The notes under the pieces: generated by a model
Database searches by the model: none
Seen by the model: only the letters and a program-made list of their open reading frames with translations
Told to the model about the DNA's origin: nothing
Source: a virus
Reading direction: 5' to 3' (one strand)
IMG/VR virus record: IMGVR_UViG_3300018476_000017
Location: 1-45,160 of that record
DNA length: 45,160 bases
Part shown: positions 11,945 to 27,893 of the stretch, piece by piece
Position numbering within the stretch: position 1 is the first letter of the stretch
How the letters are laid out: each line of letters opens with the position of its first letter
Made by a program: the position numbers and the translations under genes

Positions 11945-11981
11945 CCCGCGAGACACGCGGGCACAACGAAAGGAACCAGAA
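11945..11981 (+). promoter_or_regulatory. Hairpin/SD cassette 1
   Basis: CCCGCG and CGCGGG form a stem with loop AGACA, directly followed by ACAACGAAAGGAACC and ATG 11982. This is the short form of the cassette, with one hairpin. Confidence 0.75.
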
Positions 11982-12461
11982 ATGGCACAGAACACAGCAC
12001 CGGCCACCGAAGCTCGGGCGCACGTCCTCAAGTTCGCCAAGACGCACCGACGTGCGCTGACGCGAGCGATGCGGTCGTACCCTGCGGCGAAGGACCACGG
12101 CTGGACGTACGAAGCCGGAGAAGCGCCGGACCACCTGGACCCGACAGTCCAGGAGATCTGCTTCGACGCGCTGACCACGCTGGACCCGAAGCCGACCAAG
12201 AAGGAACTCCAGTTCGCTCTTGGGATGCACAAGCCGATCGACGTGACCAACGCGGCCGACCGACATGCTGCTCGGCTCGGCACCGACGCTCACAAGCCCC
12301 CGCTGGAGCGTCGTCCCGGGATGAACCAAGCTCCCCGGAGCAAGAAGTTCAGCGCCGACGAGATCGCCGCGGCGGTCGAAGCCGCAGCGCTGAGCGACAA
12401 GACGCTGGCCAGGTTGCTCGCCAACCTGACAGCACCGAAGGTGACCGAAGAGGTCGCCTGA
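11982..12461 (+). CDS. Hypothetical early protein
   Basis: 159 residues, helical and mixed-charge (ARAHVLKFAKTHRRALTRAM near the start, ADEIAAAVEAAALSDKTLAR near the end). No family recognised. The start is fixed by the AACGAAAGGAACC site 4 bases before ATG. Base composition returns to the ordinary GC-rich phage codon pattern here. It is the first of a run of genes each preceded by a hairpin/SD cassette. Confidence 0.75.
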   Translation: MAQNTAPATEARAHVLKFAKTHRRALTRAMRSYPAAKDHGWTYEAGEAPDHLDPTVQEICFDALTTLDPKPTKKELQFALGMHKPIDVTNAADRHAARLGTDAHKPPLERRPGMNQAPRSKKFSADEIAAAVEAAALSDKTLARLLANLTAPKVTEEVA

Positions 12462-12548
12462 CGCGGCAAGTTGCCGCCGGTTGGATGGAGCTCACCCTCC
12501 ATCCATCCACTCCTGCAACAAGGCAGGACAAACGAAAGGAACCACCCA
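12462..12548 (+). promoter_or_regulatory. Hairpin/SD cassette 2
   Basis: First hairpin GGATGGAG/CTCCATCC with loop CTCACC, then ATCCACT, second hairpin TCCTGC/GCAGGA, then AAACGAAAGGAACC and ATG 12549. Confidence 0.8.
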
Positions 12549-12776
12549 ATGACCATGACCGAAGCAGCACCTGCTTTGACCGAGTCCCCCCGATACGTGA
12601 CGGTCGCCCTGGCGATCGACGCGGCGAAGGCGGACGGCTTCGACGTGTTCGTCCGCGGCAGCAAGAAGACCGTGGCCGTGCGCGTTGTCGGCACCGGCAA
12701 GAAGGCCTCCATCGAGACGATGTTCCTCGCTGGCGGCGAAGGCGAGCGCTACTGGGCGCTCATGCGTGCAGCCTGA
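12549..12776 (+). CDS. Hypothetical small protein
   Basis: 75 residues, MTMTEAAPALTESPRYVTVA with an alpha/beta pattern (FDVFVRGSKKTVAVRVVGTG). No family recognised. Start chosen from the cassette SD; an in-frame codon further upstream lies inside the hairpins and is unlikely. Confidence 0.7.
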   Translation: MTMTEAAPALTESPRYVTVALAIDAAKADGFDVFVRGSKKTVAVRVVGTGKKASIETMFLAGGEGERYWALMRAA

Positions 12777-12847
12777 TGCACGCCGGGCAGGTCGGGGGCG
12801 ACCCTGACCTGTCCACTGCCCATCCCTGGGCACAACGAAAGGAACCA
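12777..12847 (+). promoter_or_regulatory. Hairpin/SD cassette 3
   Basis: CAGGTC/GACCTG, then CCACT, then GCCCA/TGGGC with loop TCCC, then ACAACGAAAGGAACC before ATG 12848. The stem sequences differ from neighbouring copies, yet the layout is the same. Confidence 0.8.
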
Positions 12848-13165
12848 ATGACCACGACCGTGACCACGTATCACTACGAGCGCACCGACAATCAGGTGTG
12901 GCTCGTTGTCGACCAGCCGAGCACCTTCGGCCGTAGCGAGCAGACCGCCCGCTACGACTCACGGGTACTCGTGCAGCCGGGTCGCTACTTGATGCGCCCG
13001 GTGACCATCGGCCATGCCGACTCGACCTACGACGATGCGTACTACTTCGCCGTTGCGATGACCGGCACGCTGCACTCGGGCGGGTACGCCGACGAGAAGC
13101 CGGGCGACATCAAGGATGTCTATCACCAGCCCTACGGATACATCGTCCGCGGGGCGCTCGGCTGA
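12848..13165 (+). CDS. Hypothetical protein
   Basis: 105 residues, MTTTVTTYHYERTDNQVWLV at the start, beta-rich with many Tyr residues (TYDDAYYFAVAMTGTL, HQPYGYIVRGALG). No family recognised. The start follows the cassette SD by 2 bases. Confidence 0.7.
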   Translation: MTTTVTTYHYERTDNQVWLVVDQPSTFGRSEQTARYDSRVLVQPGRYLMRPVTIGHADSTYDDAYYFAVAMTGTLHSGGYADEKPGDIKDVYHQPYGYIVRGALG

Positions 13166-13239
13166 CACACGGACGGATGGGCTTCGCTGCCCCCATCCGC
13201 CCACTCTCCCCGCTGGGGAGTACAACGAAAGGAACCAAC
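13166..13239 (+). promoter_or_regulatory. Hairpin/SD cassette 4
   Basis: Stem GGATGGG (13175-13181) with CCCATCC (13192-13198) and TTCGCT in the loop, then GCCCACT, stem CTCCCC/GGGGAG with loop GCT, then ACAACGAAAGGAACC. A clear example of the consensus. Confidence 0.85.
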
Positions 13240-13557
13240 ATGAACCGAATCACAGCCCTGCTGACCGTCGCACGGCCTGTCATCCTCGTGGGGGCCGCGC
13301 TTGCGGCACTCAGCCTGAGCTCATGCTCGTGGCAGGAGGTCGTCAACGGCACCACACGCACGCACTTCGTGGTGCTGGACACGGACACGGCATCGTTCGA
13401 TGCAGTGTCGGGCGACACGATCGACGTCATCTTCACACGCCCCGACGTGGTGTGGGATGCCGCTGGCAACTACGAGCGCTGCATGGACATGGGCGGCGAC
13501 GACTACACGTTCAGTCCTGTCACCGGCCTGTACGTGTGCGAGGGCGTCGACTTCTGA
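13240..13557 (+). CDS. Small secreted lipoprotein
   Basis: 105 residues. Residues 1-28 form a signal peptide (MNRITALLTVARPVILVGAA, then LAALSLSSC) with lipobox LSSC and lipidated Cys29. The mature part has one further Cys pair candidate (C88, C101) and DVIFTRPDVVWDAAGNYERC. It would be anchored on the outer face of the host membrane. Phage lipoproteins of this size often act in superinfection exclusion or receptor blocking; that role is an inference. The start follows the cassette SD. Confidence 0.75.
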   Translation: MNRITALLTVARPVILVGAALAALSLSSCSWQEVVNGTTRTHFVVLDTDTASFDAVSGDTIDVIFTRPDVVWDAAGNYERCMDMGGDDYTFSPVTGLYVCEGVDF

Positions 13558-13639
13558 CGCCTTGTGGTGGAGTGGGTCCCAGATGGTTCGCTGCCGTCTG
13601 GGTCCGCCGCGCATCATGCGCACAACGAAAGGAACCCCA
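13558..13639 (+). promoter_or_regulatory. Hairpin/SD cassette 5
   Basis: CCCAGA/TCTGGG around a loop with TTCGCT, then GCGCA/TGCGC with loop TCA, then ACAACGAAAGGAACC and ATG 13640. Confidence 0.8.
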
Positions 13640-13975
13640 ATGACCAAGACCAAGACACCGACCTACGAGGTCACGGCGTGGTACGACATCGCCTATGCGG
13701 TCGAGCACCACGGCGTGGAGAGCGAGCCGACCCTGCGAGGGGTTGTGCCGATTCCTCGGTGCACCGGCCCGACCGGCGTCGAGTTCGTCCAGTTCCAGTA
13801 CTCGTACTGCGACTTGACCACCGACGACCTGCACCGTGAGCTTGATGCGTTCGCCCGCAACGAGCACAAGGAGTGGGAAGACCGAAGCGTCGCCTACACC
13901 GGGTTGATCGGCCACGGCGATGGATGGTGGCACTGCTCTGGTGCCGAGCTCTGGTATCACGTCGCCAAGAAGTGA
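13640..13975 (+). CDS. Hypothetical protein
   Basis: 111 residues, MTKTKTPTYEVTAWYDIAYA at the start, aromatic-rich, ending GWWHCSGAELWYHVAKK. No family recognised. Cassette SD fixes the start. Confidence 0.7.
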   Translation: MTKTKTPTYEVTAWYDIAYAVEHHGVESEPTLRGVVPIPRCTGPTGVEFVQFQYSYCDLTTDDLHRELDAFARNEHKEWEDRSVAYTGLIGHGDGWWHCSGAELWYHVAKK

Positions 13976-14037
13976 CACGGACGGACGGGTTCGCACTCGT
14001 CCGCCCACTGCCCGACCGGGCAAACGAAAGGAACCAC
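13976..14037 (+). promoter_or_regulatory. Hairpin/SD cassette 6
   Basis: CGGACG/CGTCCG with TTCGC in the loop, GCCCACT, GCCCG/CGGGC with a 2-base loop, then AAACGAAAGGAACC and ATG 14038. Confidence 0.8.
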
Positions 14038-14391
14038 ATGACATACGAAGCAGGACAAGACTTCGCCGCTCGCTACTGGGGCGGCAAGGACGTCACGGCA
14101 TCGCCCGCACCAGCCACGCTGGGACCGCGCGATGTCGACGGCGGTCGGGTGCACTACCCGAACGGATGGGCGTTCGCTGCTGACGGGTTCACGTATCGCA
14201 TCCACCTGGACGGCGACATGTGGACCATGAACGCCAGCGACGGAAGCTTCGCAACGTTCAGCCTCGCGGGCGACACATGGCTCGTGGTGCGTGGCTGGAC
14301 CAACTGCGCAGTGACCGAGGTGCCCGCCATCCAGGACCGCGACGAGGCCGAAGCCCAATGGGAGCGGCGCACGCAAGCGCTGAACCTGTAA
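14038..14391 (+). CDS. Hypothetical protein
   Basis: 117 residues with repeated beta-like segments (GWAFAADGFTYRIHLDGDMW, FATFSLAGDTWLVVRGWTNC). No family recognised. The small beta-rich build and mid-protein Trp/Gly pattern resemble the next gene (14603), so the two may be distant relatives. Confidence 0.7.
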   Translation: MTYEAGQDFAARYWGGKDVTASPAPATLGPRDVDGGRVHYPNGWAFAADGFTYRIHLDGDMWTMNASDGSFATFSLAGDTWLVVRGWTNCAVTEVPAIQDRDEAEAQWERRTQALNL

Positions 14392-14602
14392 ACACGGACG
14401 GATGGGAGTCGCTACCCATCCGCCCACTGCGCTCAAGGTGAGCGCCACACGGAACCAAGAACCCCTGCACGAAGGCACCGGCTACAACTCCCGGAGCTAG
14501 GACAACATCGGCTGATGCTGCGGCAGGCAGGGGAGCAGCGACCCGGCACGGCGTCACACCTGTGCCGGGTACTCCCGCTCCAGCGGGTAACGAAAGGAAC
14601 AC
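14392..14602 (+). promoter_or_regulatory. Hairpin/SD cassette 7, double copy with a degenerate first SD
   Basis: The 211-base gap has two cassettes in a row. The first has GGATGGG/CCCATCC and GCGCTCA/TGAGCGC, but its SD is reduced to CACGGAACC and no start codon follows. The second has CCCGGCAC/GTGCCGGG and CCCGCT/AGCGGG, then TAACGAAAGGAAC and ATG 14603. This may be the scar of a deleted gene. Confidence 0.7.
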
Positions 14603-14896
14603 ATGGAAACCAACAACGAGACACCGACCACGGTGCCTGCCGAAGTCGAGTTCGCCGCCATCTACTGGGGCTGCGAGTGGGACGAGGAGCAGGTGCCGGA
14701 GATCACCCTGGTCGACCAGGACACCTGGGAGTTCACCAGCGCGGACGGCAACACCTACCGCGTGCTCCCTGGGCCGACCGCCTGGGAGATGGTGCCGGTC
14801 ATCAAGATCACCCAGCTGGCACCGAACACCTTTCAGGTGGACGGCGACGTGCTCACCCTCAACCGCGAGGACAAGGTGATCACCCGTGCTCGGTGA
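14603..14896 (+). CDS. Hypothetical protein
   Basis: 97 residues, METNNETPTTVPAEVEFAAI then YWGCEWDEEQVPEITLVDQD. Acidic, beta-rich, no family recognised. The SD of the cassette lies 3-4 bases before ATG. Confidence 0.7.
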   Translation: METNNETPTTVPAEVEFAAIYWGCEWDEEQVPEITLVDQDTWEFTSADGNTYRVLPGPTAWEMVPVIKITQLAPNTFQVDGDVLTLNREDKVITRAR

Positions 14897-15074
14897 TATC
14901 TGCCAGTACGTCGACCCACTGACCGACAGCAACTGCGACCAGCTGGTCGAAACGGAGGTCGACGGCGGCGACGTGGACGAACCACTGCGCTGCTGCTTGT
15001 GGCACGGACTGGTCTGCTTTGCAGGCGCGGTCAAGTGCGGCGTGGCCGACGTGGAGATGCGTCGCGCCGAGTGA
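14886..15074 (+). CDS. Small Cys-rich protein
   Basis: 62 residues from GTG 14886, overlapping the preceding gene by 11 bases. Cys and His residues (ICQYVD, SNCDQL, CCLWHGLVCF, KCGVAD) suggest metal binding. No SD is obvious, so expression by coupling is assumed. It fills what would otherwise be a gap before the next cassette. Confidence 0.55.
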   Translation: MLGDICQYVDPLTDSNCDQLVETEVDGGDVDEPLRCCLWHGLVCFAGAVKCGVADVEMRRAE

Positions 15075-15142
15075 AATACGGACGGACACATTCGCTGTGT
15101 GTCCGCCCACTCCCCCGCTGGGGGATACGAAAGGAACCAACC
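15075..15142 (+). promoter_or_regulatory. Hairpin/SD cassette 8
   Basis: CGGACACA/TGTGTCCG with loop TTCGCTG, GCCCACT, TCCCCC/GGGGGA with loop GCT, then TACGAAAGGAACC and ATG 15143. Confidence 0.85.
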
Positions 15143-15334
15143 ATGCCCGAACCACACACCGAGGTCTCGGTGCCGCGCCTGCCACCCTGCGACATCTGCG
15201 GGGACACAGCGAGCTACGACGCCAAGACCACACACGGACCCTGGGGCTACCTGTGCAGCGATCACTTCGTTGAGTACGGGATCGGCCTCGGCCTGGGATT
15301 GGGGCAACGCCTGGTGCTCGCTACACCGGGTTGA
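15143..15334 (+). CDS. Small zinc-ribbon-like protein
   Basis: 63 residues. LPPCDICGDTASYDAKTTHG then GPWGYLCSDHFVEYG gives a CxxC plus a later C/H pair, a pattern common in actinophage small proteins. The C-terminus is Gly/Leu-rich (GLGLGLGQRL). Function unknown; zinc binding is likely. Confidence 0.7.
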   Translation: MPEPHTEVSVPRLPPCDICGDTASYDAKTTHGPWGYLCSDHFVEYGIGLGLGLGQRLVLATPG

Positions 15335-15510
15335 CCCCCACAAGATGTGCTGCTCCTGGCACACGAACACGGCGGTCAGGGACGGCCACCCTGTAGAGCG
15401 CGGACGGGCGCTCTGCGGATGGGCTGTGTTCTCTCCCACAGGTAGCGGTCCGCAGGGTGCTCACCTCACCCTGCGGATACTCCTGCGCAAGCAGGCAACG
15501 AAAGGAACCA
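15335..15510 (+). promoter_or_regulatory. Hairpin/SD cassette 9 in a longer gap
   Basis: The last 70 bases hold CCGCAGGGTG/CACCCTGCGG and CCTGC/GCAGG closed by a GCAA loop, then CAACGAAAGGAACC and ATG 15511. The first 100 bases contain only a 17-codon frame (from 15345), which is not supported as a gene. Confidence 0.75.
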
Positions 15511-15750
15511 ATGGACACAACCGAAGCACTCGGGCGGGTGATCGCTGCACACCGGATCATGCTCGGCCAACCGCGCAAGTGGCTGGCCGAACAGGCAGGC
15601 ATCAGCTATCCGTACATCTGCGAGATCGAGAACGGCACCAAGGAAGCCAGCCTGACCACCCTGGCTGGCGTAGCACGAGCACTCGGCGTGCAGTTGTCGG
15701 TGTTGCTGGCCAGGGCCGAGCGGCTGATCGCCGGTGACTGCCAGCTGTGA
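15511..15750 (+). CDS. XRE-family (Cro/CI-like) helix-turn-helix regulator
   Basis: 79 residues. The HTH covers about 8-65: LGRVIAAHRIMLGQPRKWLA, EQAGISYPYICEIENGTKEA and LTTLAGVARALGVQLSVLL, with the conserved ISxxYIxxIENGxxxxxLxTLxxIAxAL pattern. It is a small DNA-binding protein that may control early or late promoters in this phage. It is the only classical XRE protein in the window. Lack of a C-terminal domain suggests a Cro-like or transient regulator more than a full CI repressor. Confidence 0.85.
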   Translation: MDTTEALGRVIAAHRIMLGQPRKWLAEQAGISYPYICEIENGTKEASLTTLAGVARALGVQLSVLLARAERLIAGDCQL

Positions 15751-15817
15751 ACGGACGGGGGTGCATCGCTAGCACCTTCGCCCACTGCCCAAGTCGGGCA
15801 CAACGAAAGGAACCAAC
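15751..15817 (+). promoter_or_regulatory. Hairpin/SD cassette 10
   Basis: GGTGC/GCACC, CGCCCACT, TGCCC/GGGCA, then ACAACGAAAGGAACC and ATG 15818. Confidence 0.8.
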
Positions 15818-16300
15818 ATGACCAACATCATCGACAGCCTCCCCCCGGACGCGCCCCACTGGTACGACAGCGAGCAGTCGATCGTGTATACGACCGACCA
15901 ATCGATGATCGTCAACCTTCGCAATCGCCTGGCGGCAGCGGAGACCGATCACCGGCAGGCGGTTGTCAACGCACGTCGTCTGTCTGCTCGTTGCGAAGCG
16001 ATGCAGGCCGACTTCAAGACCATCGAGCGGCGGCTCAACAGCGAGGCGAACAGCCGCAGCTGGTGCAGCGAGTACGACTCGATCAGTGCGGACATCAACC
16101 GCGAGTTGAGCACGTTCGAGTTCAGCCCGCGCAAGCGAGTCACGCAGGTCGAGTACGTGGTGCGCGTCGACGTGACCTACCCGCAGGACGGGGACTTCCC
16201 CGACGTGCGGAACGCCATCGAGAACGAGCTTGCCGACCTCGGCGGGCGCTGGGACGAAGACGTCGCAGAGGTGAGCATCGCCAACGTGTTCGCACGGTGA
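15818..16300 (+). CDS. Coiled-coil protein, paralogue of the gene at 25364
   Basis: 160 residues. Residues about 30-90 are heptad-like (NLRNRLAAAETDHRQAVVNA, CEAMQADFKTIERRLNSEAN). RSWCSEYDSISADINRELS follows and then a beta-rich C-terminus (VEYVVRVDVTYPQ). The gene at 25364 has the same order with REWCDEYDSFVHSLNTQLS and FTVTVGVTAP. Similar proteins occur in other actinophages with no proven role. Confidence 0.75.
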   Translation: MTNIIDSLPPDAPHWYDSEQSIVYTTDQSMIVNLRNRLAAAETDHRQAVVNARRLSARCEAMQADFKTIERRLNSEANSRSWCSEYDSISADINRELSTFEFSPRKRVTQVEYVVRVDVTYPQDGDFPDVRNAIENELADLGGRWDEDVAEVSIANVFAR

Positions 16301-16368
16301 ACCACAGGCAGGCGTGTTCGCTACACGTCCTGCCTACTGCCGCAAGGCACAACGAAAGGAACCCATCC
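16301..16368 (+). promoter_or_regulatory. Hairpin/SD cassette 11
   Basis: AGGCAGG/CCTGCCT with an inner CGTGT/ACACG and loop TTCGCT, then TGCC/GGCA closed by GCAA (a GNRA-type tetraloop), then ACAACGAAAGGAACC and ATG 16369. Confidence 0.85.
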
Positions 16369-16761
16369 ATGAGCAAGCAACGCACCCCAAGCGACCCGCA
16401 CACCCGCCAGGGTGACGCGGGTGGCACGCGCAAGAGCAGGGTCAAGCCACTGCGCACCGGCAGCGCGCCGCCCGGCGTGAGCCAGGCAGTGATGCTGAAC
16501 ATGCCCACTGGCCGCAAGGCCGAAGGCATCACCGCGCTGGAGCAGTACATGCGGGCCAACCGGACCAACCGAACCGGCGGCTACACCAGCCCGACCAACC
16601 CGCGCAACAGACGGATCACGCTCAACGTGCATCGCATCAACGCCACGCTGCGCTATCCGTTAGACGAAGCCGAACTCACCAGGCGGCTGGGCTTCTACAA
16701 GCGGGCCGACTACCGGGCCTGCTTGAAGGCAGCCGCCGAGGAGGAGATGGGCTGGGAATGA
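16369..16761 (+). CDS. Basic hypothetical protein
   Basis: 130 residues. The first 80 are polar, basic and probably disordered (SDPHTRQGDAGGTRKSRVKP). The C-terminal part (RITLNVHRINATLRYPLDEA, ELTRRLGFYKRADYRACLKA) may be a small helical domain. No family recognised. Confidence 0.7.
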   Translation: MSKQRTPSDPHTRQGDAGGTRKSRVKPLRTGSAPPGVSQAVMLNMPTGRKAEGITALEQYMRANRTNRTGGYTSPTNPRNRRITLNVHRINATLRYPLDEAELTRRLGFYKRADYRACLKAAAEEEMGWE

Positions 16762-16838
16762 CACACACGCCGGGCGGGTTCGCCCCCCGCTCGGTGTACG
16801 GCCACACGTCCGTGGCATAACGAAAGGAGCAACCCACC
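16762..16838 (+). promoter_or_regulatory. Hairpin/SD cassette 12
   Basis: CCGGGCGGG pairs with CCCGCTCGG (one G-T pair) around TTCGCC, then GGCCAC/GTGGC, then TAACGAAAGGAGC and ATG 16839. The SD differs slightly from consensus. Confidence 0.7.
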
Positions 16839-17120
16839 ATGTCACTGGAAGAACCAGGACCCGTCCACCAGGCGGGTTACGACCGTGGCGCAGCAGACGC
16901 TGACGCCATCGAGTTGACACCGGAGTTGAAACGCCAGTTTCTCGACGGTCAACAGCCGGATCCAGAGGAGTTGTCAGCTAGGTCACCACTGTCCCAACCG
17001 GACGCAGACCTGACAGAAATCCTCGGCAGGGACTATGCCGAAGATGATCCGCACAAGTACGAGCAGGGCTACCTGCTGGGGTGGGAAGAACGCCTGCTTC
17101 AACGCAGCATGAGCGACTGA
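16839..17120 (+). CDS. Acidic hypothetical protein
   Basis: 93 residues, acidic (DADAIELTPELKRQFLDGQQ, DLTEILGRDYAEDDPHKYEQ) with a final GYLLGWEERLL helix. YDRGAADAD and YEQGYLLGW resemble the repeated YxxGYxxG-like pattern seen in small phage proteins. Function unknown. Confidence 0.7.
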   Translation: MSLEEPGPVHQAGYDRGAADADAIELTPELKRQFLDGQQPDPEELSARSPLSQPDADLTEILGRDYAEDDPHKYEQGYLLGWEERLLQRSMSD

Positions 17121-17200
17121 GGCCGTCCCCCTCAGTCGGCCCGCGTCATCCTCGCAGGGTGGCGCGGGCACTCCCGCAAGGGACAACGAAAGGAGAACAC
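17121..17200 (+). promoter_or_regulatory. Hairpin/SD cassette 13
   Basis: CCCGCG/CGCGGG with a long loop, then TCCC/GGGA closed by GCAA, then ACAACGAAAGGAG and ATG 17201. Confidence 0.75.
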
Positions 17201-17557
17201 ATGACCGCCATTCAAGCGTGGGTCGAACAAGACCTGCTGGCCACACCACCCGGCCACTGGACGACCTACGGCGATAGCTCGATCCGCCTGTACGGACACA
17301 AGCGCGCGGCACGGGCAATCGGTAATGCGCTGCGCGCCGTGGTGGGCAGACACGAACACCCAACGACATGCCCGCTACCCGTGTGGCGAATGCGCATCAG
17401 CACGGGAGAGTTCACCGTGTCGCCAGCGTCGGACTTTCACCCCAGCGCTGCCGACCGTGCCCGCCTGCGTCGTGAGAACGACGTGCTGTGGGTGCAAGAG
17501 GGTGGGCGCATGATCGACGGCGTGCCAGACCCAGCACTGCGCAGGCCGGTGGACTGA
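17201..17557 (+). CDS. Alkyltransferase-like (MGMT DNA-binding domain) protein without catalytic Cys
   Basis: 118 residues. TPPGHWTTYGDSSIRLYGHK and RAARAIGNALRAV match the helix-turn-helix and Arg-finger region of O6-alkylguanine DNA alkyltransferases. Where MGMT has PCHRV and ATL proteins have PWHRV, this protein has PVWRM (about 60-64), so the alkyl-acceptor Cys is missing. ATL proteins bind O6-alkylguanine and flip it without repair. A role in sensing or handling modified bases is possible here because the phage probably modifies its DNA. The family call is from motif reading. Confidence 0.65.
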   Translation: MTAIQAWVEQDLLATPPGHWTTYGDSSIRLYGHKRAARAIGNALRAVVGRHEHPTTCPLPVWRMRISTGEFTVSPASDFHPSAADRARLRRENDVLWVQEGGRMIDGVPDPALRRPVD

Positions 17558-17648
17558 AAGACCTGCGGACTTGGAACCCCCGCACGAACGGGCGTGGCTC
17601 ACTGCTGCGCTCGTTCACCGCCGCAAGGCGACAACGAAAGGAACCAGG
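17558..17648 (+). promoter_or_regulatory. Hairpin/SD cassette 14
   Basis: GAACGGGCG pairs with CGCTCGTTC (one G-T pair), then CGCC/GGCG closed by GCAA, then ACAACGAAAGGAACC and ATG 17649. Confidence 0.75.
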
Positions 17649-17942
17649 ATGATTGTCATAGCGACTCTCGTCTGCATCGTTGGGGCACTGGCCTACGTGA
17701 TTGTTCACGGAGCCATCGCCCTGCGGCGCAAGAACAGAGAGATCGACAGGCTGCGCAGGCAGCGACCTATCACCGACAAACGATGGCGAGCACTCAATGT
17801 CATCGACAGGTGCGATTTCTCCGCAGGGTGTCACGCGCGCAGCCACGAAACTGGCTGTGTGCGTGGGCGGATTGTCGGACCAAGCATCAATGTCCAGCTA
17901 GACCAACTACCGAAAGGAACCGAAGATGACAATGACCGATGA
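17649..17942 (+). CDS. Single-span membrane protein
   Basis: 97 residues. Residues 1-25 (MIVIATLVCIVGALAYVIVH onward) form an N-terminal membrane segment, followed by the basic stretch RRKNREIDRLRRQR. The cytoplasmic part has Cys/His residues (DRCDFSAGCHARSHETGCVR), a possible zinc site. It ends 17 bases inside the next gene, whose SD lies within this coding sequence. Confidence 0.7.
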   Translation: MIVIATLVCIVGALAYVIVHGAIALRRKNREIDRLRRQRPITDKRWRALNVIDRCDFSAGCHARSHETGCVRGRIVGPSINVQLDQLPKGTEDDNDR

Positions 17943-18153
17943 GGTGTGGTGCCAGACCCGCTACGACAGTGGGCTGTACGAGTGCAAGGTCGTCCGCGAG
18001 GGCGACAACGGCACGCTGAGCGTGACCCTGGTGGGCACGATCAACCACGTGCTGCACGACGAGAAGGTCAAGTGCGACCGGGCCGACACCGACAAGTGGC
18101 GCACCCGTTGCGAAGAAGTGATCAGCAATCCTGATCTGCGGACCCGCCGATGA
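17926..18153 (+). CDS. Hypothetical protein
   Basis: 75 residues, MTMTDEVWCQTRYDSGLYEC then a beta-rich stretch GTLSVTLVGTINHVLHDEKV. ACCGAAAGGAACC lies 4 bases before ATG, without hairpins. It overlaps the membrane-protein gene by 17 bases and is ATGA-coupled to the next gene. Confidence 0.7.
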   Translation: MTMTDEVWCQTRYDSGLYECKVVREGDNGTLSVTLVGTINHVLHDEKVKCDRADTDKWRTRCEEVISNPDLRTRR

Positions 18154-19182: not shown

Positions 19183-19263
19183 CGTGACACCACGACCCGG
19201 CAGGCACTCACACGCCTGCCGGGTACGACGCGCAACCGTTGCGCGCACAACGAAAGGAACCAC
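19183..19263 (+). promoter_or_regulatory. Hairpin/SD cassette 15
   Basis: ACCCGGCAGGC/GCCTGCCGGGT, a perfect 11-bp stem, then GCGCAAC/GTTGCGC with a 1-base gap, then ACAACGAAAGGAACC and ATG 19264. Confidence 0.85.
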
Positions 19264-19473: not shown

Positions 19474-19582
19474 TGAGTTGAGCCAAGCCTGCGTGCAAGC
19501 GCGGGTGTGGCTCACCCACGAGTTCAACCTGGCGCACGCGCGAGTGCGTGCCTGGGACATCAACCCAACGAAAGGAACAGAC

Positions 19583-21741: not shown

Positions 21742-21946
21742 ACAGCACGCGCAACGTGTAGACGTACCCGTGACAGGAGATGGCGTCTTGCTGTTGGGCG
21801 ACGATGATGCGGTCCAGCTGCTCGACGGTACGCATGGCGTCTTGCCGTTCCTTGCGTCGTATCTCGCGCACGACCAGAGCGACTCCGGCTATCGCTGCCA
21901 ACACAGCACCAATGCCGGTGATCCAGGCAGCGACCTGACTGTTCAC
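21536..21946 (-). CDS. Holin-like/i-spanin-like membrane protein
   Basis: 136 residues from GTG 21946, 4 bases after the endolysin stop. Residues 5-26 (VAAWITGIGAVLAAIAGVAL onward) form one membrane span, followed by a charged coiled segment (REIRRKERQDAMRTVEQLDR). The region after about residue 92 turns Arg-rich and low-complexity and lies over the collagen-like frame, so the functional part may be the first 90 residues. Place next to the endolysin suggests lysis. Confidence 0.6.
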   Translation of the reverse strand: MNSQVAAWITGIGAVLAAIAGVALVVREIRRKERQDAMRTVEQLDRIIVAQQQDAISCHGYVYTLRVLCADKGIDTPTPPPLVEVDVGTDSLLPGVGRTGHRHRWVRRRRRSEQRDPDDGDSDGATGTTGTTGTPW

Positions 21947-21950
21947 TCAA

Positions 21951-22880
21951 CTAGGACACGGCCTTCCAGAACTCACCGCCGGTCCAGGTGTGCTTGCTGT
22001 CCCCGAAGGGAAGCTCGCCCACACGCACGCAGTTGAACAAGCCAGCTATGTCGCCGGGCTGCTCAAAGTCTTGGCCCTTGGCCGCGGCTGCGGCACGATG
22101 CGCGGCCACGGCGCGGTCCACTTCGGGTGAACCCGGCCCGGCCCACGTGACGTAGAGCGCCTGGCCATCGTCGGTGGTCATTGCGATGAACTGAGCATCG
22201 CTGTCGCTGAGGATGAGCAGTCGTACTTGCACGTCGTCGCCTCCTGGCGGTGGTGGTGTTGAGCCTGCGCGGCGGGCGGCTTCGGCTCGCATGTCGTCGC
22301 CGGACCACGTGCCGCTCGACGTGGTGGGCCTGGGATGCCACGGACCCTGCACGGCTTCGGCCGTGGCGGGGTCGATCTTCCTGGACGGTGCCCACTCCGC
22401 GTGGCCTGCCAGGTCGGTTGGCTGCAATCCGTAGGCCGCAGCGAGTGCGTTGTTGATGGCGAAGTACGCATCGATCTGCACCTGCGGCCAGGCTTCACCT
22501 ACGCCGGTGTTCACTGCTTCGATGCCGATGGCGTGACTGTTCATGCTGTCCTCGGGCACGGTGCCGCGGCTCATGCCCAGCGGACCACCTGCACCATTCG
22601 TGTTGGTGGCACCCCCTGCACAGACGATGACATCACCGGCACGACCAAGCACCAGGTTGCACACCGGGGCGACGTCGCTGCCATAGCTGGCGTAGTTGGC
22701 GACGCTCGCCGTCGAAGCGTTGGGCGCGCTGGCTGCATGGTGCCACATGATTGTCCACGGACGGTTGCCGTCGTATCCCCCGCTGGACCGAGCGCGGTAC
22801 TGCCAGTCGTCCTGTTCGGTCACGTCGAGGCCAGCCCGGCGCAGCACGTCGGCCAGGTCGGTCAGGTAGCGGTTGCCCAT
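21951..22880 (-). CDS. Endolysin, N-acetylmuramoyl-L-alanine amidase (Amidase_2)
   Basis: 309 residues from ATG 22880 (MGNRYLTDLADVLR), overlapping the upstream stop as ATGA. The amidase_2 core covers about 10-190: WHHAASAP (H47), NSHAIGIEAVNTG, GHAEWAP (H160) and KIDP (D170) supply the zinc and catalytic residues. It cleaves the amide bond between MurNAc and L-Ala in the host wall. A Pro-rich linker (about 208-215) leads to a C-terminal region of about 90 residues, probably for binding. Confidence 0.9.
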   Translation of the reverse strand: MGNRYLTDLADVLRRAGLDVTEQDDWQYRARSSGGYDGNRPWTIMWHHAASAPNASTASVANYASYGSDVAPVCNLVLGRAGDVIVCAGGATNTNGAGGPLGMSRGTVPEDSMNSHAIGIEAVNTGVGEAWPQVQIDAYFAINNALAAAYGLQPTDLAGHAEWAPSRKIDPATAEAVQGPWHPRPTTSSGTWSGDDMRAEAARRAGSTPPPPGGDDVQVRLLILSDSDAQFIAMTTDDGQALYVTWAGPGSPEVDRAVAAHRAAAAAKGQDFEQPGDIAGLFNCVRVGELPFGDSKHTWTGGEFWKAVS

Positions 22881-23086
22881 CAGAGGTCGCCGTCTTCGAC
22901 ACGGTTGCGGATGAAGGCGATGTGCGCCAGTAGGCGGAGCAACCTGCCGCTGCGGTCGGGTCGGTCGCCGGTGAACAGGTCGTTGACGCGGATGCTGATG
23001 TTGTCGAGCAAGTCGACCACAGGGTCCGACGCGTCCCACCCATCCTCGGGGTCGGCATCATCGAACGGCGTGCCTGTGTCGCTCAT
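22880..23086 (-). CDS. Small acidic protein upstream of the endolysin
   Basis: 68 residues, acidic at the start (MSDTGTPFDDADPEDGWDAS) with a helical C-terminus (RSGRLLRLLAHIAFIRNRVE). ATGA-coupled to the endolysin and 3-base overlap with the 30-residue membrane gene before it. No family recognised; a lysis accessory role is inferred from location. Confidence 0.65.
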   Translation of the reverse strand: MSDTGTPFDDADPEDGWDASDPVVDLLDNISIRVNDLFTGDRPDRSGRLLRLLAHIAFIRNRVEDGDL

Positions 23087-23088
23087 GG

Positions 23089-23181
23089 CTACACCCTGTG
23101 CCGGACGATGAGCCAGATCACGACAACCAAGAGGATGACGATGATCAAGCCAGTGCTGATGACGATCGCTTCACCAATCAT
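23089..23181 (-). CDS. 30-residue single-span membrane protein, holin candidate
   Basis: A very short gene, MIGEAIVISTGLIIVILLVV then VIWLIVRHRV. Residues 5-26 are a pure hydrophobic span with a basic C-terminus. AAGG lies upstream of ATG 23181 at a longer spacing than usual. It heads the lysis cassette, so a small holin or regulator is plausible. Confidence rests on the hydrophobic pattern and position. Confidence 0.55.
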   Translation of the reverse strand: MIGEAIVISTGLIIVILLVVVIWLIVRHRV

Positions 23182-23263
23182 GCCCGGACCTTACATCGGA
23201 TGGAGCGGGGTCGCACCCGCCCACCCACTCCCGCAACAAGGCGGGTCAACGAAAGGAAACAGG
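23182..23263 (+). promoter_or_regulatory. Hairpin/SD cassette 16 between divergent genes
   Basis: GCGGG/CCCGC, CCACCCACT, CCCGC/GCGGG, then TCAACGAAAGGAAAC and ATG 23264. The 82 bases between the lysis cassette and the plus-strand gene should also hold the lysis promoter, but no clear -10/-35 was seen. Confidence 0.75.
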
Positions 23264-23932
23264 ATGCCAACCAAGACCAAGGCAGAAACGAATGGCGAGG
23301 CGACTGCGCCACCGCCGGAGGTTGCCTCCATCAGTCTCAGCCGGATCGAGACTGAGCGGTTGGAGGTTCCGATCATGGGCACCACGCCCCTGATCTGCCA
23401 CCGCTTCTCGGAGAAGGCCAAGCGCATGATGCTCGACAACATGCAGGGCCGCAAGAATCCTCGAGAAATCAAGGATCCCCAGGCCGAGTACGAAGCCGCG
23501 TTCTACAAGTTCGATGACGGGCGCTTCGGCCACCCGACATTGGCCTTCAAGGACGCCACCGTTGGCGGCGCTCGCTTCTACGGCAGCAGCGTGACGATGA
23601 CCGGCTTGCGCCAGTCGTTGTTCTTCGTCGGCACACAGAACCAAGTCGATGGCATGGCCTTGACGGAAATCTGTGGGGAGCCGGTCATGCGGGAAGATGT
23701 CGTGCGGGTCAACCGCGGCGGCACCGACCTGCGTTACCGACCGCAGTTCAACGAGTGGACTGCAACGCTCACCATCGTCTACGTGAAGGCAATGCTGACC
23801 CGCGACAGCGTGCTGTCGCTGATCGAAGCTGGTGGAATGGGCGTGGGCGTAGGCGAATGGAGAGTCGAGAAAAGCGGCGACTTCGGTACCTATTGCATCA
23901 ATCCCGACCGAGAGGTGACCATCCTCGGATGA
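23264..23932 (+). CDS. Conserved phage protein (function unknown)
   Basis: 222 residues. The series VPIMGTTPLICHRFSEKAKR, GRKNPREIKDPQAEYEAAFY, MREDVVRVNRGGTDLRYRP and GGMGVGVGEWRVEKSGDFGT is typical of a widespread actinophage and prophage family of this length. Its biochemical role is not known to me. It is ATGA-coupled to the next gene, a pair that usually occurs together in early or replication regions. Confidence 0.8.
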   Translation: MPTKTKAETNGEATAPPPEVASISLSRIETERLEVPIMGTTPLICHRFSEKAKRMMLDNMQGRKNPREIKDPQAEYEAAFYKFDDGRFGHPTLAFKDATVGGARFYGSSVTMTGLRQSLFFVGTQNQVDGMALTEICGEPVMREDVVRVNRGGTDLRYRPQFNEWTATLTIVYVKAMLTRDSVLSLIEAGGMGVGVGEWRVEKSGDFGTYCINPDREVTILG

Positions 23933-24333
23933 GCACACTCAAGGATGAGCTACTCGCCATCCGTGCGGCGCGGGGGTTACTCACCCCCGCGACCGTGTTG
24001 GATGCAGCACGACCACCCGAGTCACCGTTGCACTCTCGCTTTGAGTGGGACGATGGCATCGCCGCGGAGAAGTATCGACTGGCCCAAGCCAGCGATCTGA
24101 TCCGCAGCGTGAGGGTCAACTTCACCACCGCGACGGGCGTCGAGTCTGTCCGTCAGTTCGTGGTATCAGGACCATCCACCTACTCCCCGATCGAGGAGGT
24201 GGCGCAAGACCCGATCAGTCGGGAGCTCTTGCTCCGCCAATTTGAGCGGGACTGGAAGACCTTCCAGGCCAGGTACTCACACCTGGCCGAGTTCCTTGAG
24301 AGCATCAGGGAGGTGTTGGCGGAAGCCAGCTGA
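23929..24333 (+). CDS. Conserved phage protein, partner of the preceding gene
   Basis: 134 residues from ATG 23929. RAARGLLTPATVLDAARPPE, SPLHSRFEWDDGIAAEKYRL and AQASDLIRSVRVNFT match the protein that usually follows the previous family (WDDxxAAxxYRxxQAxxLIR). DNA binding has been suggested for such proteins but is not evident from motifs. Last gene before the gene-free tract. Confidence 0.8.
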   Translation: MSTLKDELLAIRAARGLLTPATVLDAARPPESPLHSRFEWDDGIAAEKYRLAQASDLIRSVRVNFTTATGVESVRQFVVSGPSTYSPIEEVAQDPISRELLLRQFERDWKTFQARYSHLAEFLESIREVLAEAS

Positions 24334-25309
24334 ACGGCAATGGACATGGCAGGCGAGGCGGTACATGGCGCGTCCTCGCACGGTGAGGCATTGGCATGGG
24401 GGGCGAGGCAGGCGGGGCGTCGGCAATACCTGGATCGGCACAGCGTGTCAGTGCCCGGCCGGGCATCGCTCGACCCGGCAGGCTCGGCATGGAATGGCAG
24501 GGCGAGACTTGGATAGGCAGGTCCGGGCAGGCTCGGCCGTTGTTGGCTTGGCCGGTCACGTTCTGCAAGTCATGTCATTGGCGTGGCAGGCGGGGCTGGG
24601 CATGGCCCGACATGACGAGGAAGGCATGGCAGGCTGGGCAACGCAGTGCTCGGCTGGTCGCGGTCGGCGTGACTGGGCTGGCTTGGCTTGTCCTTCAGGG
24701 CAAGTCAGTGCACCACACTGCTCGACTCGGCTCGGCAGGCACGGTTGGCTCGGCTTGGCGAGGATGGCGTGTCCCCGCGCGGCTTGGCAGGCAAGGCTCG
24801 GCCAGTTCGTCGTGGTGTGTCAAGTCATGGAATTGATGGCGCGGTGGTCGTGGCAGGCAGGGCAGGGCGACCTTCCGCTTGGCTCGGCCAGGCTAGGCGA
24901 GTAGGCATGGCAGGCTTGGCACGCGCGGCGGGGCATGTCATCGCTCGGCACGGCCCTTCATGGCAGGCCGCGCTTGGCAGGTCTCGTGAGGCAAGTCATG
25001 GCTGGGCAGGCGCTGCGGGTCGACACGCGTCGGGGTTGGGCATGGACGTACTTGGTAGGGCGAGGCAGGCAGGGATTGGCTCGGCGGTGCAAGGCGGGGC
25101 ATGGCAGGCAGGGCTAGTCGCCGCTCGGTATGGCTCGGCCTCTATGGGGCCGGGCAGGGCAGGCGAGGCACGGCAAGGCAGACGGGTCTAGGAATGGCTT
25201 GATGCGGCAAGGCAGGCATGGCAAGGACTGGGCATCGGCATTCAGTGCTGGTCCCGGCAACGCTCGGCTGGGCGCGTCGACGGCACGGCAGGCATGGGGC
25301 GCGTGGGGG
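24334..25309. other. Gene-free, G-rich low-complexity tract (about 980 bases)
   Basis: The plus strand is packed with short words ending in GGC, such as GGCAGGC, GCTCGGC, CATGGC, GGCATGGCAGGC and CAAGTCATG, repeated irregularly every 4-6 bases. G is far more frequent than C. All plus-strand frames are long open frames because stop codons are rare, but each is a mix of Arg, Gly, Ala and Trp with no recognisable domain, and none has a good SD. Most likely non-coding. It could be a replication or packaging site, or a transcribed RNA. Confidence 0.7.
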
Positions 25310-25363
25310 TCAGACCCCGCGCGTCCACTGTGGGCATCCGCCCACTCACACGAAAGGAACCAC
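25310..25363 (+). promoter_or_regulatory. Hairpin/SD cassette 17
   Basis: GGGGTC/GACCCC with a 1-base gap, GTGGGC/GCCCAC with loop ATCC, then CACACGAAAGGAACC and ATG 25364. Confidence 0.75.
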
Positions 25364-25879
25364 ATGGACGACACACCAAACGACACGTCGATCGTCATCC
25401 CGCCGATCTTCAGCGACGAACAGCTGCTGGGGTTCAAGCAGGCGAGGATCGATGACCTGGAGCAGATGGTCTCCGACAAGGACGAGCAGCTGAATCGCAC
25501 GCGGGAAGTTCTGCACCAACTCAACATCACCCACGAGGAGGTCCTTGGCAGGCTCACCGCAACGGAGTCGGCACGGCAGCGGCTGGCCGAAGATTGCGCG
25601 ACCATCGCCGCTGAGTTGCTGTCGGAAGCGGAGCGCCGTGAATGGTGCGACGAATACGACAGCTTCGTGCACAGTCTCAACACACAGCTGAGCCAGCGCT
25701 GGTTCAAGGCGTGCCCCAGGGAATCGACGCACACCTTCACCGTGACGGTGGGCGTGACTGCACCATCGGAGTCCTACGAGGACATCTGCGAGCAGTTGAA
25801 GGAGTACCTGGAAGGCGCAGCGGAAGGAGTGAGCAACAGCGACGCATTCGACATCAGTGTCAGCGTCGTTCCGCGGTGA
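25364..25879 (+). CDS. Coiled-coil protein, paralogue of the gene at 15818
   Basis: 171 residues. A long coiled coil covers about 20-90 (ARIDDLEQMVSDKDEQLNRT, REVLHQLNITHEEVLGRLTA). REWCDEYDSFVHSLNTQLSQ and the C-terminal FTVTVGVTAPSE correspond to the same elements in the 15818 product. Its stop overlaps the next start as GTGA. Role unknown; duplication within one genome is clear from the motif order. Confidence 0.75.
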   Translation: MDDTPNDTSIVIPPIFSDEQLLGFKQARIDDLEQMVSDKDEQLNRTREVLHQLNITHEEVLGRLTATESARQRLAEDCATIAAELLSEAERREWCDEYDSFVHSLNTQLSQRWFKACPRESTHTFTVTVGVTAPSESYEDICEQLKEYLEGAAEGVSNSDAFDISVSVVPR

Positions 25880-26265
25880 CCGAGTTCCGCCGGGGGGACT
25901 ACATCACCGTGCAGGAGGCAGCGCACATTCTGCAGATCACCGAGCAGTCGGTGCATCAGTTGATGTCTCGCGGTCACATACGCAACTGGCGTGAACACAA
26001 CAGGTTCCCCCGGCCACTGCGCGCCGACGTCGAAGCGTGGGCCGCGCCCGACACACGGCTGACCGTTGCCGAAGTAGCAGAGCGATTGGGCGTAAGCGAG
26101 CAAGCGGTTCGCAACTACATCAAGAAGGGCTACCTGGTGGGTGCCCAACGGGGACGGCGGGGCGAGTTCCGCTTCACCGAGGATGCGTTGAAGCGCTTCA
26201 TTCCACCGGCCACCGGCAAGCGGACCAGGCAGCAGCCCATCCGCCGAATGGACGGCAAGCGATAA
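25876..26265 (+). CDS. Protein with two tandem MerR/excisionase-type helix-turn-helix domains
   Basis: 129 residues from GTG 25876. Domain 1 (about 8-50): YITVQEAAHILQITEQSVHQ, LMSRGHIRNWREHN. Domain 2 (about 60-108): LTVAEVAERLGVSEQAVRNY, IKKGYLVGAQRGRRGEFRFT. Both have the (I/L)TVxEAAxxLxVxxxxVxxLI pattern of excisionase-like HTH proteins. A basic tail (KRTRQQPIRRMDGKR) follows. A DNA-binding regulator or architectural protein that contacts two half-sites is likely. Confidence 0.8.
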   Translation: MTEFRRGDYITVQEAAHILQITEQSVHQLMSRGHIRNWREHNRFPRPLRADVEAWAAPDTRLTVAEVAERLGVSEQAVRNYIKKGYLVGAQRGRRGEFRFTEDALKRFIPPATGKRTRQQPIRRMDGKR

Positions 26266-26343
26266 CGGACGGGTGTGGGTCATACCGCACCCGCCCACTC
26301 ACCCAACACGGGGTGATACAAGCAACGAAAGGAACCGAACCAA
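26266..26343 (+). promoter_or_regulatory. Hairpin/SD cassette 18
   Basis: GGGTGTGG/CCGCACCC (one G-T pair), GCCCACT, TCACCC/GGGTGA, then AGCAACGAAAGGAACC and ATG 26344. Confidence 0.8.
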
Positions 26344-27831
26344 ATGCCAAAGAAGAAAGAGGAACTCGATCCCGATTCCCCCGAGGGCATTCGCCAGCAG
26401 CAAATGCAGCTGCTCGCGGAAGTCGGCGGGAAGCTGTTGGGCGAGGAAGACATCACCTTCTCCGGCACGAAGTTCGTACTGCCCGCGAAGCTGGACCTGG
26501 AGCAAGCAATTGAGTTCCTGGCACAGCGTCAAGAGGATGAAGAAACCGTCAACCGATTCCAGAAGGAGTTCAAGTACCGCCCGCTCGATGGAGCGCGCGC
26601 AACGATGAACGCCATCAAGGAGACGTTCGGTTTCACCTTGGGCAAGACGATCTACTCGTTCTTCGGAAACACGCCACCCACCTTCATCGACTGCCGCTTC
26701 GGCCCAGGCCGGAACGACACCGAGCAGGTGCCGTGGGGTGCGATGCAGATTCCTGGCTTCCGCAACACGGTCGTGTACCTGGGTAACACCAACCACGCCG
26801 AACTCGGGAGCATCTTCCACATTCGCGTCGAAGCGCCACGCAAGTATCGGTGGCACATCGAAGGTCTGTTCAGGTTGATCGAGAAGCATCTCTCTGAGAA
26901 CTCGATCTACAAGGGCAAGGCAATCGACGGCGCGGAGGAACCCAACTTCCTGGACCCGTCATCGGTCAACCCGGCCGATGTCGTCTACACCCAGGAAGTC
27001 GTCGCGCAGTTGGAGGCCAACGTGTGGTCGCCAATCAAGCACGCCGACATGCTGACCTCACTCGGTCAGCCGGGCAAGCGGACCGTCTTGTTTGAGGGTC
27101 CGTATGGCACGGGCAAGTCGCTCGCAGCGTTGCTCACCGCACAGGTGGCCATCGCCAACGGGTGGACGTTCTTGCTGTGCCGCCCTGGGAAGGACGACCT
27201 GAACGTGACCATGCAGACGGCGCGCATGTACCAGCCCGCCGTCGTGTTCTTCGAAGACCTCGACACGGTTGCCCAGCCGGGCAGCGGTGACGACGTGTCG
27301 AAGATCTTGGACATGTTCGACGGCATCACCACCAAGGGGCTGCAGATGCTCTTGGTGCTCACCACCAACCATGCGGAGCGCATCCACAAGGGCATGGTGA
27401 GGCCGGGTCGTTTGGACGCGGTGATCCACGTTGGAGAGATGGACCGTGCTGGCGTAGAGACACTGACCCGCCGGGTCATTGGCGATTCGCTGCACACGGA
27501 CATCGACTTCGACAAGGTGGCCGAGGCGATGGATGGCTACATGCCAGCCTTCGTCAAGGAGGCGCTGGACCGGGCCATCCGGTACAGCGTCAGTCGCAAC
27601 AACGGGCACGTCGGCCTGATCGATACCGACGCCCTGGTGCTGGCAGCGCATGGCCTGCGCGACCAGCTGCGCCTGATGTCGGAGGCATCCGATGTCGAGC
27701 GCGAGCCAACCCTCGACCGTGTGTTCATGCGCACGATCGAGAAGGTGACCGCCGAAGTTGTCCACGGTGCAGCCGTGCTCGACTACGACGGCGACGAGCG
27801 GTTCCACCTGGGACCGCGCGAAGACAGCTAA
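26344..27831 (+). CDS. AAA+ ATPase
   Basis: 495 residues. The ATPase module covers about 230-430: Walker A GPYGTGKS (252-259), Walker B VVFFEDLD (300-307), sensor 1 LTTNHAERIHKGM and the RPGRLD box typical of classical AAA proteins (FtsH, Vps4 or CDC48 type). Residues 1-220 are a phage-specific N-terminal domain. Classical AAA proteins remodel or unfold protein complexes with ATP. The substrate here is unknown; context (tandem HTH protein, then the modification genes) suggests a role on phage or host nucleoprotein. Confidence 0.85.
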   Translation: MPKKKEELDPDSPEGIRQQQMQLLAEVGGKLLGEEDITFSGTKFVLPAKLDLEQAIEFLAQRQEDEETVNRFQKEFKYRPLDGARATMNAIKETFGFTLGKTIYSFFGNTPPTFIDCRFGPGRNDTEQVPWGAMQIPGFRNTVVYLGNTNHAELGSIFHIRVEAPRKYRWHIEGLFRLIEKHLSENSIYKGKAIDGAEEPNFLDPSSVNPADVVYTQEVVAQLEANVWSPIKHADMLTSLGQPGKRTVLFEGPYGTGKSLAALLTAQVAIANGWTFLLCRPGKDDLNVTMQTARMYQPAVVFFEDLDTVAQPGSGDDVSKILDMFDGITTKGLQMLLVLTTNHAERIHKGMVRPGRLDAVIHVGEMDRAGVETLTRRVIGDSLHTDIDFDKVAEAMDGYMPAFVKEALDRAIRYSVSRNNGHVGLIDTDALVLAAHGLRDQLRLMSEASDVEREPTLDRVFMRTIEKVTAEVVHGAAVLDYDGDERFHLGPREDS

Positions 27832-27893
27832 GCAAGCCTGCCGCCCGCCCCTGCTCCCGGGGGCGGGCGGCACCCACCACGAAAGGAACCAAC
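27832..27893 (+). terminator. Cassette 19 with a strong 12-bp hairpin
   Basis: GCCGCCCGCCCC (27840-27851) pairs perfectly with GGGGCGGGCGGC (27860-27871), loop TGCTCCCG. It is followed by ACCACGAAAGGAACC and ATG 27894. No T-tract. The strongest stem of all cassettes, so termination is plausible. Confidence 0.65.

Follow-up and report, generated by a model that had tools for sequence, protein, structure and literature searches.

The uncultured virus record IMGVR_UViG_3300018476_000017 of the IMG/VR collection, analysed here over its whole length of 45,160 bases (the window; GC 0.65), encodes its portal, terminase and head proteins on the minus strand between 1 and 8 kb, followed by an early region read from the plus strand from about 12 kb. 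Within this early region, most genes are preceded by a cassette composed of, in order, a first hairpin (hairpin 1), the nucleotides A-C-(U/G), a second hairpin (hairpin 2), a ACAACGAAAGGAACC-type Shine-Dalgarno (SD) sequence and the start codon. Eighteen complete copies are present ahead of genes (11,982-27,894), together with one degenerate copy that lacks a gene and one copy with a single hairpin. The source is an uncultured actinobacterial phage. A search of a phage collection found no near-identical DNA in cultured phages, the cultured relatives of its portal belong to Arthrobacter, Microbacterium, Gordonia, Mycobacterium and Streptomyces phages at identities of 39% or less, and a host search with a portal profile returned a sole, remote match, to Dietzia. 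Its relatives are other uncultured contigs, designated G002 (portal 73% and ATPase 81% identical), G003, G005, G001 and others. The elements of the window are listed below, with bases of hairpin 1 such as 3 and 70 numbered as in transfer RNA (tRNA).

11705-11735, plus strand: isolated hairpin like a tRNA minihelix, just 3' of the stop of the open reading frame at 11130-11699; UCG at nt 14-16, ACT tail; matches the descriptor defined below; 30.0 bits with covariance model (CM) R1
11910-11981, plus strand: cassette before gene 11982; hairpin 1 at 11910-11940 (31 nt, CGA at loop positions 56-58), ACGA, hairpin 2, SD
12479-12548, plus strand: cassette; hairpin 1 at 12479-12508 (U3 opposite U70), ACT, hairpin 2, SD; CM 37.3 bits
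12785-12847, plus strand: cassette; hairpin 1 at 12785-12814 (G1-C72, G2-C71, G3.U70, A73), ACT, hairpin 2, SD
13171-13239, plus strand: cassette; hairpin 1 at 13171-13202 (A3 opposite C70), ACT, hairpin 2, SD
13575-13639, plus strand: cassette; hairpin 1 at 13575-13605 (U3 opposite U70), GCC, hairpin 2, SD
13979-14037, plus strand: cassette; hairpin 1 at 13979-14006 (28 nt, A3 opposite C70), ACT, hairpin 2, SD
14396-14456, plus strand: degenerate cassette; hairpin 1 at 14396-14425, ACT, hairpin 2, decayed SD CACACGGAACC, geneless; CM 40.0 bits
14541-14602, plus strand: cassette; hairpin 1 at 14541-14570, ACT, hairpin 2, SD
15080-15142, plus strand: cassette; hairpin 1 at 15080-15108 (29 nt, A3 opposite C70), ACT, hairpin 2, SD; orthologous slots in G002 and G001
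15448-15510, plus strand: cassette before helix-turn-helix gene 15511; hairpin 1 at 15448-15478, ACT, hairpin 2 (GCAA loop), SD
15753-15817, plus strand: cassette; hairpin 1 at 15753-15783 (A3 opposite C70), ACT, hairpin 2, SD
16306-16368, plus strand: cassette; hairpin 1 at 16306-16335 (one bulged base), ACT, hairpin 2 (GCAA loop), SD
16767-16838, plus strand: cassette; hairpin 1 at 16767-16797, ACG, hairpin 2, SD
17139-17200, plus strand: cassette; hairpin 1 at 17139-17169, ACT, hairpin 2 (GCAA loop), SD
17586-17648, plus strand: cassette; hairpin 1 at 17586-17616, ACC, hairpin 2 (GCAA loop), SD
19195-19263, plus strand: cassette; hairpin 1 at 19195-19224, ACGA, hairpin 2, SD; orthologous slot in G001
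23198-23263, plus strand: cassette before gene 23264, with minus-strand genes upstream; hairpin 1 at 23198-23226, ACT, hairpin 2, SD
25297-25363, plus strand: cassette following about 1 kb without a clear gene; hairpin 1 at 25297-25326 (G1-C72, G2-C71, G3.U70, A73), ACT, hairpin 2, SD; orthologous slot in G002
26267-26343, plus strand: cassette before AAA ATPase gene 26344; hairpin 1 at 26267-26296 (A3 opposite C70), ACT, hairpin 2, SD; same slot in G001, G002 and G005
27840-27893, plus strand: single long hairpin and SD before gene 27894, without U-C-R (R, purine) or hairpin 2; a different, related element

The hairpin at 11705-11735 has no SD or gene directly downstream and sits in repeat-rich DNA (28-bp and 16-bp tandem units at 11700-11910, directly ahead of the first cassette); a chance origin is possible. 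Another unusual stretch, at 24334-25290, is about 950 bp without a clear gene; it is made up of short words, GGCAGG, CATGG and CTCGGC among them, and was not called a tandem array.

The cassettes are a real, well-structured family of RNA elements associated with gene starts, as an earlier note made from the letters of this DNA had proposed. With an automated detector, 46 candidate starts of the window yielded 15 double hairpins, where dinucleotide shuffles give an expectation of 0.7, and ACAACGAAAGGAACC at up to 3 mismatches matches 26 times, vs 0.63 in shuffles. The constant SD described in that note is likewise recovered: CGAAAGGA precedes 21 genes on the plus strand, and both hairpins are present at 18 of these. 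Of the remaining SD sites, that at 27,880 follows the one long hairpin, and those at 17,911 and 19,569 lack a clear cassette; the nineteenth double hairpin (14,396-14,456) is the one whose SD has decayed and whose gene is absent. Hairpin 1 lies anywhere from 1 to 963 nt past the preceding stop codon, while hairpin 1 and hairpin 2 are separated by 2-4 nt and hairpin 2 and the SD by 3-10 nt; thus, the cassette belongs to the downstream start. Copies 23198 and 25297 have no plus-strand gene directly upstream, and so these two are not simply the ends of upstream messages. When folded in silico, the SD is mostly unpaired (mean unpaired probability 0.77). The spacer had been given as a constant GCCCACT. 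This exact sequence occurs in only about seven cassettes, where the CC forms the 3' side of stem 1; what is conserved and unpaired is A-C-U, with the variants ACG, ACC and GCC. Searches of the window with Rfam gave nothing at the gathering threshold and nothing at E 0.5, and ARAGORN called no tRNA in it. A scan with the literal cassette pattern returned two contigs, of which one (L001, the same as G001) is a real relative and the other (L002) a chance match.

Hairpin 1 has the dimensions of the acceptor and T arms of a tRNA. Both in the window and in its relatives it mostly spans 30-31 nt (12 bp and a loop of 6-7 nt), and in the tRNA minihelix used as reference an acceptor stem of 7 bp and a T-stem of 5 bp place U55, C56 and R57 at nt 14-16. 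Among hairpins that carry U-C-R, 29/44 have it at nt 14, and when all registers are scanned, offset 14 yields 26 sites and every other offset at most 6; hairpin 2 has no such regularity of span or register. The loop is constant as a U-C-R at a fixed register and not, as had been suggested, as the single type TTCGCT: CTCACC, GTCATA, GTCACA, ATCGCT and others also occur, two copies retain only C-G-A, and the prevalent loop differs between phages (TTCGCT in the window, GTCGAA in G002, CTCGTAC in G005). A descriptor that combines these properties (a span of 30-31 nt, U-C-R from nt 14, no more than one of 11 pairs mismatched, and an R-C-K tail) matches the window 11 times, vs 0.12 in shuffles, always on the plus strand and between 11.7 and 26.3 kb. 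It also matches G001, G002, G003, G005 and G008 with an SD, and reversed sequence over all sources gives 4 matches. Ten cultured actinophages, including Pixie (K3), have zero SD-associated matches; in the cultured actinophage Verity there are two, both without an SD. At loci that played no part in defining the descriptor there are five matches in L102, which is close to G005 and hence only partly independent, and one in L106, with one in the reversed control. Hairpin 1 is probably a mimic of the tRNA acceptor/T-arm domain.

The nucleotides that follow hairpin 1 extend this resemblance. In every window copy they are A-C-U, A-C-G, A-C-C or G-C-C, so that a purine at 73 and C74 are present in 19/19. 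For comparison, a scan for tRNA-like slots with an SD had returned 22 contigs, mostly with ordinary phage tRNA arrays, which were reused as an independent set of tRNA 3' ends. Among 136 tRNA genes of these other viral contigs, with ends defined by the acceptor stem, 116 have A or G at 73, 103 have C74 and 111 have T or G at 75, and CC is found in only 7; the pattern used to fetch the contigs demands this kind of tail of one tRNA, which is excluded from the count. The cassette hairpin thus ends like a CCA-less phage pre-tRNA. The base preceding hairpin 1 (N-1) is C in 13/19 copies and otherwise G; in mycobacteria C-1 is more frequent than U-1 (reviewed in PMC11143913). As an observation on the tRNA genes themselves, the CCA-less ones of contigs L071-L092 favour strongly a C74-T75 (or CG) trailer at the 3' end (73 CT and 16 CG of 136), possibly a general processing signal.

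One pair of the acceptor-like stem departs from the rest. Position 3:70 is mismatched in 16/51 hairpins vs 2/255 cells at pairs 1, 2, 4, 5 and 6 (Fisher p 4.5e-12, a value that is overstated because the copies are related). When the stem is of the GG...CC type, 3:70 is A.C, U.U or G.U in 19/26, usually with A73.

Although the stems differ between copies, their pairing is maintained. In a set of 24 hairpins, pairing at the eight outer positions of the stem reaches 95.3% vs 60.3% in shuffles, two-sided changes are present at 8/8 of them, and the covariation score is 0.879 vs 0.238; for all 12 pairs of 17 equal-length hairpins it is 0.909 vs 0.245. In neither set did any of 500 shuffles score as high. 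Since the rows of both sets were chosen by the pairing descriptor, window sites selected by loop and tail sequence alone serve as an independent check: at least 9 of 11 pairs form in 45% (span 30) and 31% (span 31) of the sites with an SD downstream, and in about 1% of those without. The earlier note had read compensating changes in the stems as selection on RNA structure and had named covariation as the check on this claim; that view is borne out. The strongest evidence comes from orthologous slots. Ahead of the ATPase gene, whose protein is 81% identical in the window and G002, hairpin 1 reads GGACGGGTGTGG-GTCATA-CCGCACCCGCCC in the window, GCCCGCGTCACC-GTCGAA-CGTGACGTGGGC in G002, GCCTTGGTCTGG-CTCGTAC-CCAGGCCAGGGC in G005 and GGACGCCGGGGT-TTCACC-GCCCCGGTGCCC in G001; span, register and tail are constant and the stems differ.

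In other relatives the same slot is occupied by a fuller fold. In G010, G011, G013 and G015 a 7-bp acceptor stem is followed by a gap of 12-38 nt, a 5-bp T-stem with the T-loop TTCGANY, which has the full U54 and A58, and then A/G-C-(T/G); these folds are tRNA-like and lack a D arm. An SD-like site lies downstream of six of them (0.3 per pass in shuffles), although the SD-like match of the G013 fold (L060 18072) is doubtful. G003 and G001 have less regular tRNA-like versions, and where the window has a hairpin of 31 nt ahead of gene 11982, the orthologue in G003 (L038) is preceded by a tRNA-like fold whose T-loop is TTCGATC. ARAGORN called none of the relatives' folds a tRNA. At permissive Rfam thresholds they match tRNA (22.5 bits), transfer-messenger RNA (tmRNA; E 0.0004) and tRNA-Sec (27.3 bits), and the G015 form with a 12-nt gap matches mascRNA (E 0.009); all are below gathering scores, with E-values from very small searches, and serve as pointers. 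A tRNA gene as such was rejected as an identity for the element, there being no gathering-score Rfam or ARAGORN match and the relatives' folds reaching only sub-threshold scores. In three of the folds (L055 11912, L060 18072 on the minus strand and L057 6185), the middle arm has GTTCCTT(TC), complementary to the SD GAAAGGAAC, and may be an SD-binding loop acting in cis or in trans.

A scan of the cassette region for σ70 promoters found no promoter-like sites, and terminator-like sites (a stem followed by a U-run) number 10 vs 10.1 in shuffles, with none at a plus-strand cassette. These predictions are consistent with a single long early transcript. The best explanation for the cassettes, to which we assign a probability of roughly 0.55, is that hairpin 1 is cut by tRNA-processing enzymes and so punctuates the early mRNA. 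It builds on what was computed for geometry, register, tail, covariation, start association, conservation at orthologous slots and replacement by fuller folds, from which we infer recognition by RNase P or RNase Z, cleavage, and protection of the new 5' end by hairpin 2. Hairpin 1 would attract the host enzymes that process tRNA, leading to cleavage by RNase P at its 5' end, by RNase Z immediately past the base that follows the stem (A|CU), or by both. The early polycistronic transcript would thereby be split into single-gene mRNAs, in each of which about 2 nt would precede hairpin 2, the 5' shield, and an exposed SD (GAAAGGA) would follow it, and the upstream mRNA would end at or within the tRNA-like hairpin. 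Several observations weigh against this explanation. The 3' end is RC and not the RCCA contacted by RNase P RNA; the window loops, in which 54 is mostly C, G or A and 58 mostly C, are thus not full T-loops (U54, A58); neither Rfam at its gathering threshold nor ARAGORN finds a tRNA in the window; some hairpin-1 variants in G001 and G011 are shorter; and simple recognition by RNase P or RNase Z would not predict the weak or mismatched 3:70 of most GG-type copies.

The hairpins might instead be generic stabilisers of mRNA, with RNase E or RNase J cutting in the spacer, hairpin 1 guarding the upstream 3' end, hairpin 2 guarding the next 5' end, and the tRNA enzymes uninvolved. Such a role would fit the unpaired spacer of 2-4 nt that the hairpins border, as well as promoter-like sites not being found and terminators at shuffle level, as for a processed polycistron. 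However, it has no need of a fixed 12-bp length, a single U-C-R register or an R-C-(U/G) tail, and would not lead one to expect replacement by tRNA-like folds; we consider it possible but unlikely. The roles named in the earlier note, mRNA ends or RNase barriers, pointed in the right direction; they were generic, and missed the tRNA geometry, the register, the 3' end and the fuller folds of relatives. An insulator of translation, in which the hairpins, placed between stop and start, keep ribosomes from reading through and leave the SD free for independent initiation at each gene, would account for the constant distance from hairpin 2 to the SD and for an SD that is mostly unpaired. Yet cassettes 23198 and 25297 have no coding gene directly upstream and the tRNA-like geometry of hairpin 1 goes unexplained, making this improbable as the main function; insulation may be a secondary role of hairpin 2.

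No more probable is a protein-binding site, in which a phage or host regulator, or a tRNA-binding enzyme (TruB, AlaRS or EF-Tu), binds the loop of hairpin 1 and coordinates early expression. The fixed register of the loop, the phage-specific prevalent loops, as expected from a co-evolving binder, and the non-Watson-Crick 3:70 of the GG-type stems, like the alanine identity site (PMC9976931), are in its favour, but no candidate regulator was found, and both the tail and the replacement by tRNA-like folds make tRNA enzymes the first candidates. A more specific proposal concerns alanine. The alanine identity set consists of G1-C72, G2-C71, G3.U70 and A73, and some tRNA-Ala mutants mispaired at 3:70 work in E. 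coli (PMC9976931). In this scheme, RNase Z cleavage and CCA addition would leave the upstream mRNA ending in a chargeable tRNA-like structure, as in plant viruses like turnip yellow mosaic virus (TYMV), such that early mRNAs would be both punctuated and capped by aminoacylatable alanine-type minihelices; the anti-SD loop GTTCCTTTC, carried by the tRNA-like folds of some relatives, might serve as a small regulator that binds the shared GAAAGGAAC sites. The strict set is present in only two window copies (12785 and 25297), most other GG-type copies having A.C or U.U at 3:70, and most of the relatives' tRNA-like folds lack it, and so charging is speculation and the proposal as a whole highly doubtful. 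Least credible are repeats that act as DNA, either as recombination sites for gene shuffling or as operators for a DNA-binding protein, as has been proposed for the extended start-associated sequences (ESAS) of mycobacteriophages. Repeats dispersed at the gene boundaries of a mosaic early region would suit such a function. However, pairing is kept while stems differ between copies and between orthologous sites, and every copy is on the coding strand, at starts. For the recombination sites suggested in the earlier note there is nothing in favour, the stems at orthologous genes being wholly different with their geometry kept.

If cleavage of hairpin 1 by tRNA-processing enzymes is correct, a lineage of actinobacterial phages uses the essential tRNA-maturation enzymes of its host so that a single early transcript yields many mRNAs, each stable and translated on its own; such a strategy of tRNA punctuation is, to our knowledge, otherwise known mainly from organelles and two eukaryotic long noncoding RNAs (lncRNAs). 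It would also account for start-associated hairpins that are otherwise unexplained, offer a compact expression part for actinobacteria (minihelix, 5' hairpin and SD), and provide natural covariation data on the minimal requirements of RNase P and RNase Z.

Elsewhere in the window, a minus-strand gene at 1106-4060 encodes a 984-aa head protein that combines head-morphogenesis matches with a 2'-5' RNA ligase (2H phosphoesterase) domain (PF13563); it may be injected and work as an enzyme on tRNA ends or on cyclic nucleotides. A protein with radical SAM and SPASM domains (PF04055, PF13186) is encoded at 29065-30033.

Among known systems, the start-associated sequences (SAS) and ESAS of cluster K mycobacteriophages are similar in being repeated elements at the starts of non-structural genes, with an SD inside and upstream inverted repeats in about half (Pope 2011, PMC3203893). 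However, their SD motif is another one, and the 13-bp SAS consensus GGGATAGGAGCCC has 0 matches in the window at up to 2 mismatches. Differences among the 17-bp ESAS inverted repeats do not support RNA pairing (Pope 2011, PMC3203893), whereas pairing in the window covaries (0.909 vs 0.245), and Pixie has no match to the tRNA-like descriptor. An identity with SAS/ESAS was thus ruled out by the absent motif and the covarying pairs, in agreement with the earlier note, and an intrinsic terminator was rejected for lack of a terminator-like site at any plus-strand cassette. The cultured Gordonia phage Ronaldo (L070, MH479925) has another start-associated RNA family at 37168-41198 on the minus strand, in evenly spaced gaps of about 75-80 nt; most contain a small hairpin (e.g. 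GGTC-ATTCA-GACC) and a long-range helix of 6-8 bp, the 3' strand of the helix overlapping the hairpin loop, a pseudoknot-like or bistable arrangement, and these elements have no Rfam match.

Model hairpins made of the acceptor and T arms are cut by bacterial RNase P RNA (PMC11143913; minimal substrates, PMC11221534). They share their minimal domain with hairpin 1, as do the natural non-tRNA substrates, P1/P7 C4 RNA and the his operon mRNA; unlike the cassettes, these are synthetic or single cases with RCCA ends and not a genome-wide array. The tRNA-like domain of tmRNA is also an acceptor/T-arm fold without a D arm, and tmRNA is matched below threshold in the relatives, but the cassette is an intergenic mRNA element without a tag reading frame. 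The closest counterparts are mitochondrial tRNA punctuation, plant t-elements and the mascRNA of MALAT1. In mitochondria, intergenic tRNAs or tRNA-like folds (t-elements in plants) are cut by RNase P and RNase Z and thereby define mRNA ends. The cassettes likewise place tRNA-like folds between genes, with cleavage here inferred only, whereas the mitochondrial cases are organellar, are single elements or real tRNAs, and have no start-associated second hairpin and SD. The mascRNA and menRNA of MALAT1 and MEN-beta (RF01684) are tRNA-like folds without a D arm within a longer RNA, which tRNA enzymes process; according to one report, mascRNA maturation requires RNase P (PMC11693755). They lie in single copy at the 3' end of a eukaryotic lncRNA, whereas the window carries shorter minihelices, of 12 bp, in about 19 copies.

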